Both the position numbers and the translations under genes were made by a program. Shown here piece by piece: positions 8,201-14,970 of a stretch of DNA of 64,000 nucleotides. The stretch's first letter is position 1. The number at the start of each line of letters is the position of its first letter. The stretch is from an uncultured Neglectibacter sp. (GTDB lineage Bacteria; Bacillota; Clostridia; Oscillospirales; Acutalibacteraceae): positions 62,001 to 126,000 of the forward strand of contig CAJFSY010000003.1 of NCBI GenBank assembly GCA_904419785.1, in the 5' to 3' direction. The notes under the pieces are model-generated. The model did no database searches. It was given only the letters and a program-made list of their open reading frames with translations, and was not told the origin of the DNA.

Positions 8201-9151
8201 ATGAAAAAAGTTCTTTCGGCTATTTTGGCAATCAGCTTGTGCGCTTCTATGCTGGCCGGCTGCGGCGGCGATAACGGTTCCTCCTCCAGCCAGGGCAGCA
8301 GCTCTGAGAGCAGCGCTTCTCAAAGCACTGCTTCTGAAAGCGGCTCCTCTTCCGAAGCTCAAGCAGAAGGCACTTCTGCCTCCGGCCCCATCACCGTGAT
8401 CTCCCGTGAAGATGGTTCCGGCACCCGCGGCGCTTTTGTGGAACTGCTGGAAGTTACCGACGAGGAAGGCAACGACATGACCACCACCAGCGCTGAGATT
8501 TCCAACTCCACCGAAGTTGTGATCCAGTCTGTGGCAGGCAACACCGGCGCCATCGGTTACATCTCCCTGGGTTCTCTGGACGACACTGTGAAAGGCGTGA
8601 AGATCGACGGCGTGGAACCCACCGCTGAGAACATTGAGAACGGCACTTACACCGTATCCCGTCCCTTCAACGTGGCTACTAAGGGCGAATTGACCAACGA
8701 AGCCGCTAAGGACTTCATGAACTACATCATGAGCACTGAGGGCCAGGCCGTTGTGGAAGAAGAAGGCTACATCCCGGTAGACGGTGCAGAAGCTTTCACC
8801 AGCACCAACCCCTCCGGCTCTGTGACTGTTTCCGGTTCCACCTCCGTGTCTCCCCTGATGGAGAAACTGAAAGAAGCCTATGAGACTGTGAACCCCAACG
8901 TGACCATCGAGCTGCAGACTTCCGACTCCACCACCGGCATGACCAACACCATCGACGGAATGTGCGACATCGGCATGGCTTCCCGTGAACTGAAGCAGGA
9001 AGAGCTGGACCAGGGCTTGGTAAACACCGTTATCGCTACCGACGGCATCGCTATCATCGTGAACAACGAGTCTCCCATCGACGAGCTCACTTCCGAGCAG
9101 GTGCGTGACATCTACCTGGGCAACATCACCGATTGGTCCGAACTGGGCTAA
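8201..9151 (+). CDS. pstS: Phosphate-binding lipoprotein PstS, circularly permuted
   Basis: A 316-residue lipoprotein: signal peptide with lipobox LAGC (C21), then a Ser-rich linker to about 60. The phosphate-binding fold is present, but its halves are swapped. SREDGSGTRG (68-77), normally in the middle of PstS, comes first. SGSTSVSPL (211-219), STTG and DIGMASREL (256-264), normally N-terminal, come after it. The protein ends with DIYLGNITDWSELG, which in ordinary PstS runs directly into the SREDGSGTRG segment. Residues about 195-210 bridge the old C and N termini. It captures phosphate for PstCAB outside the membrane. A strong RBS (AAGGAAGG) and Pho-box repeats precede it, and a hairpin follows. 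Confidence 0.93.
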   Translation: MKKVLSAILAISLCASMLAGCGGDNGSSSSQGSSSESSASQSTASESGSSSEAQAEGTSASGPITVISREDGSGTRGAFVELLEVTDEEGNDMTTTSAEISNSTEVVIQSVAGNTGAIGYISLGSLDDTVKGVKIDGVEPTAENIENGTYTVSRPFNVATKGELTNEAAKDFMNYIMSTEGQAVVEEEGYIPVDGAEAFTSTNPSGSVTVSGSTSVSPLMEKLKEAYETVNPNVTIELQTSDSTTGMTNTIDGMCDIGMASRELKQEELDQGLVNTVIATDGIAIIVNNESPIDELTSEQVRDIYLGNITDWSELG

Positions 9152-9181
9152 CGTTTCCCCGGCAAACAACGAATCACATAG

Positions 9182-9229
9182 AAAGGGGCTGCAGGCCGGC
9201 GTTCACCGCCTGGTACAGCCCCTTTTCTG
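9182..9229 (+). terminator. Stem-loop between pstS and pstC
   Basis: AAAGGGGCTG (from 9183) pairs with CAGCCCCTTTT (to 9226), with further GC pairing inside. A weak T tail follows. Placed after the binding-protein gene, it probably lowers transcription of pstC-phoR or protects the pstS message. Confidence 0.7.
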
Positions 9230-9250
9230 TAGGAGGGCAGTGAATTATCT

Positions 9251-10135
9251 ATGAACGAAAAAACAAAAGAGCACCGCAGCGGACGGATACGCGAAAGAGT
9301 GATGCAGATCGTCTTTTTGATCGCTGCGTGCATCTCTATTCTGGCTGTGGCCCTGATCTGTATTTACCTGTTCGCCAACGGCCTGCCGGCTATCTTTGAG
9401 ATCGGCCCCCTGAATTTCCTTTTGGGTACCGATTGGCGCCCCAACGCCGATCACTACGGTATCTTCCCCATGATTTTGGGAAGTATTTACGTCACAGCGG
9501 GAGCCATCATCGTAGGAGTTCCCCTGGGGCTTCTGGCCGCTATCTTTATGGCTAAGTTCTGTCCCAAGCCGCTTTACAAATTCTTAAAACCTGCTGTGGA
9601 TCTGCTGGCAGGTATCCCTTCTATCGTATATGGCTTCTTCGGCCTGATGGTGGTGGTCCCCCTGATGCAGCAGCTTTTCCCCAACACCAGCGGCAAAAGC
9701 ATCCTCACAGCGTCCGTCCTTTTGGGAATTATGATTCTGCCCACCATCATCGGCGTATCCGAAAGCGCTATCCGCGCCGTCCCCGACAGCTACTACGAGG
9801 GCGCTTTGGCTTTGGGCGCCAGCCATGAACGCAGCGTGTTTTTCGTCACGGTCCCCGCGGCGAAATCGGGCATTATGGCAGGCATTATCCTTGGCGTGGG
9901 CCGGGCTATCGGCGAAACCATGGCTGTCATTATGATCGCCGGCAACCAGCCCCAGATCCCCGATAGTCTTTTAGACGGCGTGCGGACACTCACCGGCAAC
10001 ATCGTCATGGAAATGGGTTATTCCACCGGCCTGCACCGTGAGGCTTTGATCGCCACCGGCGTTGTGCTCTTTGTGTTCATTCTCATCATCAACCTGCTGT
10101 TTTCCATCATCAAGCGGAAGGAGCGTAAGGCATGA
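9251..10135 (+). CDS. pstC: Phosphate ABC transporter permease PstC
   Basis: A 294-residue inner-membrane permease with about six membrane helices and the binding-protein-dependent transport fold. Landmarks are TDWRPNADHYGIFPMILGS after helix 1, [16 protein letters not shown], and the EAA cytoplasmic loop (YYEGALALGASHERSVFFVTVPAA). Length is normal. It is preceded by TAGGAGG about 13 nt upstream of ATG 9251. The last codons overlap the pstA start (ATGA), so the two are translationally coupled. Confidence 0.95.
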   Translation: MNEKTKEHRSGRIRERVMQIVFLIAACISILAVALICIYLFANGLPAIFEIGPLNFLLGTDWRPNADHYGIFPMILGSIYVTAGAIIVGVPLGLLAAIFMAKFCPKPLYKFLKPAVDLLAGIPSIVYGFFGLMVVVPLMQQLFPNTSGKSILTASVLLGIMILPTIIGVSESAIRAVPDSYYEGALALGASHERSVFFVTVPAAKSGIMAGIILGVGRAIGETMAVIMIAGNQPQIPDSLLDGVRTLTGNIVMEMGYSTGLHREALIATGVVLFVFILIINLLFSIIKRKERKA

Positions 10136-11046
10136 GCGATTATACCGAAAAAGCGGAAAAGAAAGGGCGTGCCAGCCAAATCGCGGCCATCAACAAGCCC
10201 ACTTTTCAGCAGGCCTTGAAACAATACAAGAAATCACCCTTTTCTCTGTTTCTCCGGGTGGTTGTGACCTTGGCCACAATCATCACTGTGGCCGTGCTGC
10301 TGTTCCTGGTAGCCTACATTCTGGTGATGGGCGTACCCAACCTGAAGCCCTCCCTCTTTGAACTGGAATACAACAGTGAAAACGCCTCCCTGCTGCCGGC
10401 GCTGATCAACACCGTGATCATGACCTTCCTTTCTCTGATCGTCGCGGTTCCTATCGGCATTTTCTCCGCCATCTACCTGGTGGAATACGCCCGGCGGGGC
10501 AACAAGCTGGTGGGGGTGGTGCGCATCACTGCTGAAACGCTTTCCGGCATCCCCTCCATCGTTTACGGCCTGTTCGGATTCCTGTTCTTCGGCGTTTCCT
10601 TTGGCTGGGGATACTCCATGCTGGGCGGCGCTTTGACCATGGCCATCATGATCCTTCCCCTGATCATGCGCACCACGGAAGAAGCCTTGATGAGCGTACC
10701 CGATTCCTTCCGGGAAGGCAGCTTCGGCCTGGGCGCCGGAAAACTGCGCACCGTGTTCCGCATCATTCTGCCTTCGGCTATCCCAGGCATCCTTTCAGGC
10801 GTCATCCTGGGCGTGGGCCGCATTGTAGGCGAGACAGCGGCTTTGATGTTCACTTCCGGCACGGTAGCCCAGGTAGCCGTCAATCCCATGGATTCCGGCC
10901 GGACCTTGGCGGTGCATATGTACAACCTGTTAAACGAAGGTTTGGCCCGTGAGGCCGCTTACGCCACAGCCGTGGTGCTGCTGATACTGGTGGTAGGCAT
11001 CAACGCGCTCTCCTCCTTTGTGGCTAAAAAATTCACCAAAACGTAA
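10132..11046 (+). CDS. pstA: Phosphate ABC transporter permease PstA
   Basis: A 304-residue partner of PstC. A cytoplasmic N-terminal tail of about 35 residues is followed by six membrane helices. [18 protein letters not shown] and the EAA loop ([25 protein letters not shown]) are diagnostic. It overlaps pstC by 4 bp. The ATPase gene follows after about 80 bp. Confidence 0.95.
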
Positions 11047-11128
11047 AACCAATAACGACGGGACGGGGCCTTTCCATGTATATGCGGGCCGCTCCCGCGA
11101 TGAACTAAAGGAATGGATGGTTTCTCTT

Positions 11129-11878
11129 ATGGATAAAATCACGGTCAAAAACCTGGACCTTTATTATGGGGACTTCAAAGCGCTGAAAACAGTGAACATG
11201 AATATTGCCCCCAACGAAGTGACCGCTTTCATCGGCCCTTCGGGATGCGGTAAATCCACCCTGCTCAAATCCTTAAACCGCATGAACGACCTGGTGGAAG
11301 GCTGCAAGATCACCGGCGAGATCCTGCTGGATGGGGAAGATATTTACGGGAACATCGACGTGAACCAGCTGCGCAAGCGTGTGGGGATGGTGTTCCAAAA
11401 GCCCAACCCCTTCCCCATGAGCGTCTATGATAACATCGCTTACGGCCCCCGCACCCACGGGATTCGCTCCAAGGTGAAGCTTGATGAGATTGTGGAAAAA
11501 TCCCTGCGGGGGGCGGCCATTTGGGACGAATTGAAAGACCGGCTGAAAAAAAGCGCTTTGGGCCTCTCCGGCGGCCAGCAGCAGCGGCTTTGCATCGCCC
11601 GGGCCTTGGCGGTAGAACCAGAAGTTCTGCTCATGGATGAGCCCACTTCCGCCCTGGACCCCATCTCCACCTCCAAGATCGAGGAACTTGCAATGGAATT
11701 GAAATCTGATTATACTATTGTCATCGTAACGCATAACATGCAGCAAGCCGCGCGTATCTCTGATAAGACAGCGTTCTTCCTCTTGGGCGAGCTGGTAGAA
11801 TTCGGCCCCACTGAGACCGTGTTCTCTATGCCCAAAGATAAGCGTACCGAAGATTACATCACCGGCCGGTTTGGTTGA
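11129..11878 (+). CDS. pstB: Phosphate ABC transporter ATP-binding protein
   Basis: A 249-residue ATPase: Walker [11 protein letters not shown]-loop in [14 protein letters not shown], signature LSGGQQQR, Walker B VLLMDEP, H-loop VTHNM. Ends with the PstB-typical tail [14 protein letters not shown]. The frame is open further upstream, but the family begins at [13 protein letters not shown]. I took ATG 11129 with GGATGG 8 nt upstream; the in-frame ATG at 11117 (after AAAGGA) is an alternative that adds four residues. Confidence 0.96.
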
Positions 11879-11896: not shown

Positions 11897-12544
11897 ATGA
11901 GAACGAAATTGGATGAACAACTGGAAAAGCTCAATGTGGCGCTGATCACTACCGGCGCCCTATGCGAAGACGCTATCTCCACCGCTGCCAAAGCGCTTTT
12001 GGAAAACGATATGGAGCTGGCCGCGAAAGTGAAACCCATTGAACTGGAGATCGATCAGCGGGAACGGGAGATCGAGAGCCTGTGCATGAGGCTGCTTTTG
12101 CAGCAGCAGCCTGTAGCCGGCGACCTGCGGCAGATCTCTTCCGCTTTGAAGATGATCACCGATTTGGAACGCATTGGTGACCAGACCTCTGATATTGCCG
12201 AGCTGCTGCCTTACCTTCAGCAGGGAGACATTACTTTCAGCAAAGTGCACATCAAAGAGATGGCGGAAGCTACCATTAAAATGGTAACGGATTCCATCGA
12301 GTCTTTTGTGCGTCAAGACTTGCCCTTGGCCCACAGCGTCATGGAGTATGACTCTGTAGTGGATAACCTGTTCACCAAAGTAAAGAACGAGCTGATCCAG
12401 CTTATCGCTGAGAACCGTGAGAGCGGCGAGTTCTGCCTGGATCTGCTGATGGTGGCCAAATATTTCGAGCGCATCGGCGACCATGCGGTAAACGTGGCCG
12501 AGTGGGTGCAATATTCCCTTACAGGCACTAAGGAAAAAGCATAA
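11897..12544 (+). CDS. phoU: Phosphate signalling/transport regulator PhoU
   Basis: A 215-residue all-helical protein with the two PhoU repeats; each carries a metal-binding E/DxxxD-type motif, in ITDLERIGDQTSDIAE and AKYFERIGDHAVNVAEW. PhoU links the Pst transporter to the PhoR kinase and represses the Pho response when phosphate is plentiful. Good RBS (AAAGGA). It lies between pstB and the two-component genes. Confidence 0.96.
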   Translation: MRTKLDEQLEKLNVALITTGALCEDAISTAAKALLENDMELAAKVKPIELEIDQREREIESLCMRLLLQQQPVAGDLRQISSALKMITDLERIGDQTSDIAELLPYLQQGDITFSKVHIKEMAEATIKMVTDSIESFVRQDLPLAHSVMEYDSVVDNLFTKVKNELIQLIAENRESGEFCLDLLMVAKYFERIGDHAVNVAEWVQYSLTGTKEKA

Positions 12545-12591: not shown

Positions 12592-13269
12592 ATGATCTAT
12601 TTTTTAGAAGATGACAACAGTATCCGCGAACTGGTAGTATACACCATGAACTCCACCGGTTACGACGCGGTCGGTTTCGCAAAACCCGCCGAATTTTGGG
12701 CGGCTATGGAACAAGAGATGCCCAGCCTGGTGCTTTTGGACATCATGCTCCCCGAAGAGGACGGCTTGCAAATTCTTAAAAAGCTGCGGGCAAACCCTCT
12801 CACCAAAAAACTGCCGGTAATGATGCTTACCGCTAAAGACAGCGAATATGACAAGGTGCTGGGACTTGACAGCGGCGCGGACGATTATGTTCCCAAACCC
12901 TTCGGCATGATGGAACTGATGGCCCGCATCAAAGCGCTGCTGCGCCGGGCCGGGCCCCAAGAGCCCGACGACAAAGAGTACATCCTGGACAAGTTGTACG
13001 TATCCCCCTCCCGACATCTGGTAAAAGTAGACGGCAAGGAAGTTTCGCTGACTTTGAAAGAGTTCGAGCTGCTTTGCTTCCTGCTGGAAAACGACGGCAT
13101 GGTGCTCACCCGTGATAAGATATTGGCCCGGATATGGGGCTACGACTTTGACGGCGAGACCCGTACTGTAGACGTTCACGTGCGCACGCTCCGCCAAAAG
13201 CTTGGGGAGTGCGGCGCTTTTATCGAAACCGTGCGGGGCGTGGGATATAAAATCGACCGCCGGGATTAA
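12592..13269 (+). CDS. phoB: Phosphate regulon response regulator (OmpR/PhoB family)
   Basis: A 225-residue regulator: receiver domain with acidic pocket (D7, D8), phospho-acceptor D50 in LVLLDIMLP and the conserved Lys in VPKPFG, then a winged-helix OmpR-type DNA-binding domain ending in TVRGVGYKID. Start ATG 12592 fits the family N terminus (MIYFLEDD). A TTG 39 bp upstream is in frame, but would add a non-family extension. It should bind the TTWACA repeats upstream of pstS. Could equally be named phoP as in Bacillus. Confidence 0.93.
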   Translation: MIYFLEDDNSIRELVVYTMNSTGYDAVGFAKPAEFWAAMEQEMPSLVLLDIMLPEEDGLQILKKLRANPLTKKLPVMMLTAKDSEYDKVLGLDSGADDYVPKPFGMMELMARIKALLRRAGPQEPDDKEYILDKLYVSPSRHLVKVDGKEVSLTLKEFELLCFLLENDGMVLTRDKILARIWGYDFDGETRTVDVHVRTLRQKLGECGAFIETVRGVGYKIDRRD

Positions 13270-13308: not shown

Positions 13309-14970
13309 GTGAGAAAAAAGATCTTTAACAATATGTGCCTGCTGGCGTTGGTGACCATCCTCCTCTCCTCACTGCTTATCACCTTCGTTTACTATGGCAA
13401 CTCCGATGCCCGCATGAAAGCAGAGGTGCGGGAAGAGGCCCGGTATATCCGCGGCGCGGTAGAGCTTTCTGGAAAAGACTATTTGGAAACGGTGAAAAAC
13501 ACCCCCAACCGCATCACATTGATCGACACAGACGGCACTGTGCTTTTCGACAACCAAGCTGACCCAGCCGCTATGGAAAACCACTCTGACCGCCAGGAAG
13601 TGAAGCAGGCCGTTACCGCCGGGGCTGGCGAAGCCACCCGCATGTCGGGCACACTGTCTGAAAAGAAGTTCTATTATGCCATAAAGCTTGAAAACGGCCA
13701 GATCCTCCGCATAGCCAGCGAAACCGCCTCCGTATTTGCCGCGGTGCTCTCCATGCTGCCGTGGATCATCGGCATCGCGGTTTTGGTGGCCGTCATCACG
13801 GTGCTGTTTTCCAATTTCCTCACCAAGAAGATCGTAACCCCCATTAACCGCCTGGACCTGAACCATCCCGCCGACAATGTGGTGTATGACGAGCTTTCCC
13901 CTTTGCTGAGCAAAATCAACCGGCAGAACGAAGTGATCGACCAGCAGATTCGTTCCCTGCGGGAAAAGCAGGAGGAATTCACCTCTATCACCGAGAACAT
14001 GAGCGAAGGCTTTTTGGTGCTGGATAAAAACACAGATATCCTCTCTTACAATACCAGCGCTTTACGGCTGCTTGGAGCGGACGCCGCCCCAGCCGAAAGC
14101 CATGAAAGCGCTTTGGCCTTGAACCGCAGCGCCGGGTTCCGCAGCGCCGTGGACGCCGCTCTCTCCGGCAGCCGCAGCGAACAGCTGGTACGCCAGGGCG
14201 GGCGCTGCTGCCAAGTTATGGCTAACCCCGTTCTGCGGGAAGGCGAAGTGGAAGGCGCCGTGGTGGTGATTTTGGATATTACCGAACGGGAAGAACGGGA
14301 TAACCTCCGCCGGGAATTCACCGCCAACGTCTCTCACGAACTGAAAACTCCTTTGACTTCTATCTCCGGATTTGCCGAGATCATCCAAAACGGCATTGTG
14401 AAACCGGAGGATATCCCCCGGTTCGCCGGAAATATCTATGTGGAGTCACAGCGGCTGATCTCCCTGGTAGATGACATCCTGAACCTTTCCCGTTTGGATG
14501 AAGCAGACGTTCAACTGGAACGGGAGGATTTTGACCTGGCGGCTCTGGCCCGGGATGTAGCCGGACGCTTGAAGGACTCCGCCAAGAAAAACGGCGTGGT
14601 GATCACCGTTATTGGCGACAAGACCATGATCAACGGCGTAAAGAGCATTGTGGATGAAATGCTCTACAACCTGTTGGACAACGCGGTAAAATACAATAAA
14701 AAGAACGGCCGGGTGACCGTCACCATAGAGAATGACCAGAACGGGCCCACCCTGGCCGTAACAGATACCGGAATCGGCATTCCCCAAAGCGATGTTGACC
14801 GGGTATTCGAACGTTTCTACCGAGTGGATAAGAGCCATTCCAAAGAGGTCGGCGGAACTGGCCTGGGGCTTTCCATCGTAAAGCATGGAGCCGCCTTCCA
14901 CAACGCCAAGGTCTCTCTGGAAAGCACGGAAGGCAAAGGCACAACCGTGCGTCTGGCCTTTCCCAACTAA
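13309..14970 (+). CDS. phoR: Phosphate regulon sensor histidine kinase PhoR
   Basis: A 553-residue membrane kinase. Helix 1 at about 9-28, an extracellular domain at 30-140 (PAS-like, with RITLIDTDGTVLFDN), helix 2 at about 148-168, a cytoplasmic PAS at about 225-328, HisKA with H343 in SHELKTPLT, then HATPase with N-box LLDNAVKYN and TDTGIGIP. GTG start at 13309 has AAAGGA upstream. It is the last gene of the pst-pho operon and is followed by a strong terminator. Confidence 0.93.
   Translation: MRKKIFNNMCLLALVTILLSSLLITFVYYGNSDARMKAEVREEARYIRGAVELSGKDYLETVKNTPNRITLIDTDGTVLFDNQADPAAMENHSDRQEVKQAVTAGAGEATRMSGTLSEKKFYYAIKLENGQILRIASETASVFAAVLSMLPWIIGIAVLVAVITVLFSNFLTKKIVTPINRLDLNHPADNVVYDELSPLLSKINRQNEVIDQQIRSLREKQEEFTSITENMSEGFLVLDKNTDILSYNTSALRLLGADAAPAESHESALALNRSAGFRSAVDAALSGSRSEQLVRQGGRCCQVMANPVLREGEVEGAVVVILDITEREERDNLRREFTANVSHELKTPLTSISGFAEIIQNGIVKPEDIPRFAGNIYVESQRLISLVDDILNLSRLDEADVQLEREDFDLAALARDVAGRLKDSAKKNGVVITVIGDKTMINGVKSIVDEMLYNLLDNAVKYNKKNGRVTVTIENDQNGPTLAVTDTGIGIPQSDVDRVFERFYRVDKSHSKEVGGTGLGLSIVKHGAAFHNAKVSLESTEGKGTTVRLAFPN

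Follow-up and report, generated by a model that had tools for sequence, protein, structure and literature searches.

A circularly permuted phosphate-binding protein PstS encoded at the head of a pst gene cluster in an uncultured Neglectibacter and in many other bacteria

The window analysed here, a stretch of 64,000 nucleotides from a draft genome of an uncultured Neglectibacter sp. (contig CAJFSY010000003.1, positions 62,001 to 126,000), encodes a phosphate-binding protein PstS whose two halves stand in swapped order. The protein runs from a lipoprotein signal through the C-terminal half of PstS and a bridge of about nine residues to the N-terminal half, and that it is a real circularly permuted PstS is confirmed by the comparisons below. 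Its gene opens the order pstS-pstC-pstA-pstB-phoU. Next come genes for a PhoB-like regulator and, after it, a PnpS/PhoR-like kinase, and the whole set lies on the + strand. The protein very probably serves a complete Pst importer as its phosphate-binding subunit, in permuted form. It is neither unique to this genome nor structurally new, since PDB 4H1X (SP_2084 of Streptococcus pneumoniae TIGR4, released 2012-10-17), permuted in the same way in another organism, had already been solved. An earlier note made from the DNA letters had proposed this arrangement, with a bridge at about residues 195-210; the motif blocks it relied on (residues 68-77, 211-264 and the C-terminal end) lie exactly where it placed them, and sequence comparison, a rotation test and a structure model all bear the proposal out.

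Both Pfam PBP_like_2 and TIGR02136 hit the protein as two separate stretches; the best hit covers residues 200-314 on positions 4-125 of 267 for the first profile and residues 205-316 on positions 39-156 of 295 for the second. With its match split in two, the whole protein reached 204.5 bits against TIGR02136 and so fell short of the curated cut-off (206.6). When the halves were aligned separately to standard PstS chains from the PDB, they came out in swapped and not in normal order: the first half of 4q8r and 4gd5 corresponds to residues 205-316 (203-316) and the second half to residues 62-193, the two pieces matching 4q8r with 102.1 and 100.1 bits, and 1twy and 4exl likewise matched as two swapped pieces. 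Both halves are therefore homologous to PstS, and the N-terminal half does not precede the C-terminal one. Against a profile built from 42 standard-order PstS, the native core scored 153.1 bits (profile 115-242) and 137.3 bits (1-112), whereas each of its twelve best rotations, at residues 194 to 205, scored 302.8 bits over profile 1-242; 94 of 100 composition shuffles gave any score, with a maximum of 5.1 bits. All 120 permuted homologues in which both halves reached at least 60 bits scored higher once rotated (medians of 268 vs 141), and rotating standard proteins lowered their score from 345 to 177.

PDB 4h1x matches the window protein in a single stretch (residues 57-314, E 1.1e-59), and its fold matches the structure model over 253 residues at 1.2 Å, so that the end-to-end correspondence in permuted order holds for sequence and fold alike. 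Standard structures match the model over one half only, with about 45% identity in the matched half. The halves are thus predicted to form one PstS-type two-lobed protein matching 4H1X, and the model is one compact fold, as the earlier note's proposal implied. Low-confidence modelling (pLDDT block means of 43-53) extends across residues 1-60, and the Ser-rich linker is gapped in many relatives in an alignment of 25 permuted proteins. Cys21 is invariant in all 25 of them, and the invariant columns also include R69, S73, G74, T75, S213, S215, S243, S261 and R262, so that the phosphate-site motifs of PstS are kept. We take these motif residues to hold phosphate, the role they have in E. coli PstS. 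Phosphate would be bound between the lobes and delivered to the protein's own PstC/PstA as usual.

The permuted form was found well beyond the window genome, ranging wider than the gut Clostridia in which the earlier note had thought relatives possible. Among the matches listed, best first, 92 of 150 genomes of the window's family (its own included) matched the protein, and 29, again its own included, carried the second half ahead of the first at one locus each, one of these loci being cut by a contig end. In another of the 29 (L027, genome G135) the permuted PstS is spread over two frames, through either disruption of the gene or a mistake in sequencing. Across the phylum, 291 of 398 genomes matched on the same basis, 14 (own included) with a permuted gene and two with a fused tandem. 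Among named genomes, the best 80 of 542 relatives were all permuted, which is not a frequency because the ranking is by similarity to a permuted query. These 80 comprise 68 Bacillota (two of them Streptococcus), five Spirochaetota, three Actinomycetota, three Thermodesulfobacteriota and one labelled Accumulibacter; the Thermodesulfobacteriota and Accumulibacter records, like many of the rest, come from metagenome binning, and their assignment may be wrong. The permuted form also occurs in records that carry no such mark, namely Streptococcus mitis, S. hillyeri, Adlercreutzia sp., Paraeggerthella hongkongensis and Treponema saccharophilum. In the last it lies on the 382-kb plasmid pTS2 within a pstSCAB-phoU cluster (L202:5905-6774) and is annotated merely as a substrate-binding domain-containing protein; one-piece matches occurred on two plasmid records. 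A second genome of the window's genus (G125, 99% complete) gave no PstC-family match over the cut-off, the best reaching 22.3 bits, and the pst cassette is therefore not fixed within the genus, having been gained or lost.

Several divergent or unusual relatives were seen alongside these. Five short, unannotated phage-collection records from human faeces labelled Bacteriophage sp. (H11-H15: MT837530, MT837962, MT838544, MT838145 and MT837061) gave one-piece, hence permuted, matches and may be bacterial DNA. A very divergent permuted homologue (L030:1366-2280), 36% identical to the window protein, sits on a long branch and has no recognised lipobox. Three adjoining divergent PstS-like proteins with lipobox-like starts were found at L170:407-9950 (G118); two of these, in frames of 712 and 739 aa, are greatly extended at the C-terminus.

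The swapped order could in principle be a product of assembly or a frameshift, as the DNA comes from a draft assembly of 38 contigs. The same order recurs at all 80 best named loci, on the two plasmid records and in the crystal structure 4h1x, and because it is seen in many independent genomes as well as in a crystal we regard the chance of an artefact as negligible. That the halves hit separate stretches of the same profiles would also fit two half-proteins of separate origin, or domains shuffled together from different binding proteins. Such an origin is highly improbable, given that one PstS chain, 4q8r, fits both halves about equally, that the rotated halves make one full-length match and that the model is a single compact fold like 4h1x. 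A two-component system lies downstream of the pst genes, and the protein might accordingly be thought to act as a sensor, or to bind some other anion, instead of being the transporter's phosphate subunit; we consider this quite unlikely, as pstCAB-phoU follows the permuted pstS, the phosphate-site motifs are kept and no other PBP_like_2 gene was found at E 0.001 in the genome (2.23 Mb, 98% complete). Of seven matches to the window protein in its own genome, the full-length one was alone among the matches listed.

A single origin of the permutation is most likely, in an ancestor of the present pstSCAB cassette, which would afterwards have been inherited and moved between gut bacteria as a unit. 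In a PstS tree of 156 units, from which incomplete or weakly matching units had been dropped, 115 of the 117 permuted rows formed one clade with support 98. The PstC and PstA trees speak more clearly for one origin than the PstS trees: a single branch with support 99 separated the PstC partners of 115 permuted PstS from 28 others, and one with support 96 separated 74 PstA partners from 11 others, with permuted rows over-sampled in both because the searches began from a permuted query. One genome (G179) carries both kinds, and the PstC of its permuted (L148) and standard (L149) loci sort by type. In each of the 115 permuted relatives for which sufficient DNA was at hand, PstC or PstA came next after pstS. 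At nine PstC positions a single residue is shared by 85% or more of 114 permuted partners and by no more than 10% of 26 standard or tandem ones (long rows L030, L175 and L176 dropped beforehand), Cys37 being present in 113 of the 114; they are best read as clade marks and not as evidence of contact with PstS.

Some observations speak against a single event. The two remaining permuted rows of the 156-unit tree, L031 (37% identical to the window protein) and L128, group with standard L169 and L171, which are flagged long branches. In a second PstS tree, with 33 of the 117 permuted rows and with four long standard rows removed (L169 and L171 among them), one branch set all the permuted rows apart, with a weak support of 43, and L028 and L029 joined L031 and L128 outside the core. 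The PstA set is without L031, L028 and L029, and the PstC and PstA trees, both made with FastTree, contain a few rows that were flagged as long. From PstS alone a second origin is thus possible, given the placement of L031 and L128 and the support of 43. That the permutation arose at least twice, in the main clade and in the L031/L128 pair, is nevertheless improbable, since dropping the long standard rows puts the permuted rows together and the PstC of both loci fall on the permuted side of the branch supported at 99. In the second tree a core of 29 permuted rows retained support 98, and by this core the window protein belongs to one clade with other permuted PstS; 4h1x was not a row in the PstS trees.

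As to how a single ancestor could have been permuted, we propose tandem duplication followed by trimming. The earlier note had suggested duplication and fission, which is plausible as far as fused tandems exist; those found belong to a different lineage. A fused tandem PstS with four halves in the order first-second-first-second occurs in two related genomes (L146:1-4001 in G503, 531-aa frame; L147:1-5001 in G460, 544-aa frame), one of which is a single contig; it lies upstream of pstC and, as a duplication intermediate would, holds the junction of second to first half within one chain. The two are 74% identical; in G503 the alignment spans three stop codons, with a query that started ahead of the probable start codon. 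As a living intermediate the tandem was rejected, for it branches inside standard PstS and away from the permuted clade, which tells against this route; the tandems show that such fusions survive, not that the permuted clade descends from them. A wider search for fused tandems gave none beyond these two genomes (three genomes each in their family and order). Loci L143-L145, considered as partial duplications, proved to have extra N-terminal sequence in standard order.

The features of the locus are collected in Table 1. The bridge of the window protein is about nine residues long; across the permuted set the gap between the half-profiles spans 9-14 residues (median 11). Between pstS and pstC lies a stem-loop (folding z -1.96 for 9150-9253) that possibly sets pstS above pstCAB expression. 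A pattern scan gave one promoter-like match, inside the coding region and not used, and no terminator by that pattern.

Table 1. Features of the permuted pstS gene, its protein and the downstream genes (positions in the window)
Feature	Position	Strand	Details
Permuted pstS	8201..9151	+	ORF, 316 aa, ATG start, TAA stop
Lipoprotein signal peptide and lipobox cysteine Cys21	8201..8263	+	sequence LAGC
Ser-rich linker, residues 22-61, predicted disordered	8264..8383	+	pLDDT
Second PstS half (H2), residues 62-195	8384..8785	+	62-193 align to 118-245 of 4q8r
SREDGSGTRG, residues 68-77, in H2	8402-8431	+	
Bridge, old C-terminus to old N-terminus, residues 196-204	8786..8812	+	gap between half-profiles
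First PstS half (H1), residues 205-316	8813..9148	+	aligns to residues 3-114 of 4q8r
SGSTSVSPL, residues 211-219, in H1	8831-8857	+	
DIGMASREL, residues 256-264, in H1	8966-8992	+	
DIYLGNITDWSELG, residues 303-316, in H1	9107-9148	+	
Stem-loop between pstS and pstC	9182..9225	+	arms 9182-9191 and 9216-9225, perfect 10-bp inverted repeat
pstC	9251..10135	+	TIGR02138 298.5 bits, cut-off 196.45
pstA	10132..11046	+	TIGR00974 269.8 bits, cut-off 193.45
pstB, start by eye	11117..11878	+	TIGR00972 426.3 bits, cut-off 343.2
phoU	11897..12544	+	TIGR02135 199.2 bits, cut-off 130.25
PhoB-like response regulator, start by eye	12592..13269	+	TIGR02154 219.1 bits, below cut-off 296.2
PnpS/PhoR-like sensor histidine kinase	13309..14970	+	NF046044 PnpS 313.9 bits, below cut-off 400

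The best outside evidence on the function of a permuted PstS comes from S. pneumoniae. PMC11075461 gives the name pstS to SP_2084 and pstS2 to SP_1400, the PDB entry name of 4h1x is pstS 2, and pstS numbering thus varies between sources. According to PMC4913102, low phosphate strongly induces the pst1 operon, which has a part in uptake; we infer that pst1 carries SP_2084. The string 'permut' occurs 0 times in the text of that paper. In term searches of the open-access literature, judged mostly from listings, the permuted order, its wide spread and its co-inheritance with the permease were not found in print, and no listing pointed to a paper on the half order of 4H1X. Tentatively, and with somewhat less than even confidence, we suggest that permuted PstS and its own PstC/PstA clade constitute a distinct, co-inherited Pst subtype in which the anchor has left lobe 1 for lobe 2 and the permease has co-adapted, present in at least three phyla (four if the bins are trusted) and undescribed as permuted in the papers that the searches found. 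A common permutation of apparently one main origin, co-inherited with its permease, offers a natural experiment on whether it matters for docking to an ABC importer which lobe of a Venus-flytrap lipoprotein is tethered. The phosphate systems of gut bacteria may moreover be under-annotated, since the window protein scores just under the NCBI PstS cut-off and the Treponema member bears a generic annotation.

Compared with standard PstS (4Q8R and 4GD5; TIGR02136, PBP_like_2), to which both its halves are homologous in the opposite order, the window protein would keep the hinge and change solely the lobe that bears its anchor; standard-order relatives likewise sit ahead of pstC. In the model, lobe 1 probably comprises residues ~160-275 and lobe 2 residues ~62-152 plus 280-316, the hinge being crossed by a long strand (273-287) and a second strand (153-161). 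Lobe 1 would contain the old N- and C-termini, now joined, and lobe 2 the two new ones, and the two hinge strands would therefore be left untouched while the lipid tether moved to the other lobe. The lobes were assigned from the order of strands and helices in the model and from the usual PstS topology, a basis that makes the anchor shift a tentative reading. The altered hinge dynamics raised by the earlier note are judged unlikely, because the old and the new termini each seem to fall within one lobe. Compensation for the new tether through linker length was rejected, the distance from lipobox Cys to core not differing between permuted (median 21; lipobox in 102/118) and standard proteins (18.5; 34/42; Mann-Whitney p 0.31). 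Another circularly permuted, lipid-tethered ABC-type binding protein is MglB-2 of Treponema pallidum; it was not among the 50 matches listed in the fold comparison. As described in PMC4990184, MglB-2 binds glucose and belongs to type I/cluster B (in permuted form type Ic/cluster Bc), and the authors of that work consider that such a topology might favour anchoring at the membrane. MglB-2 gains a fourth hinge crossing through its permutation; that of the window PstS would add none.
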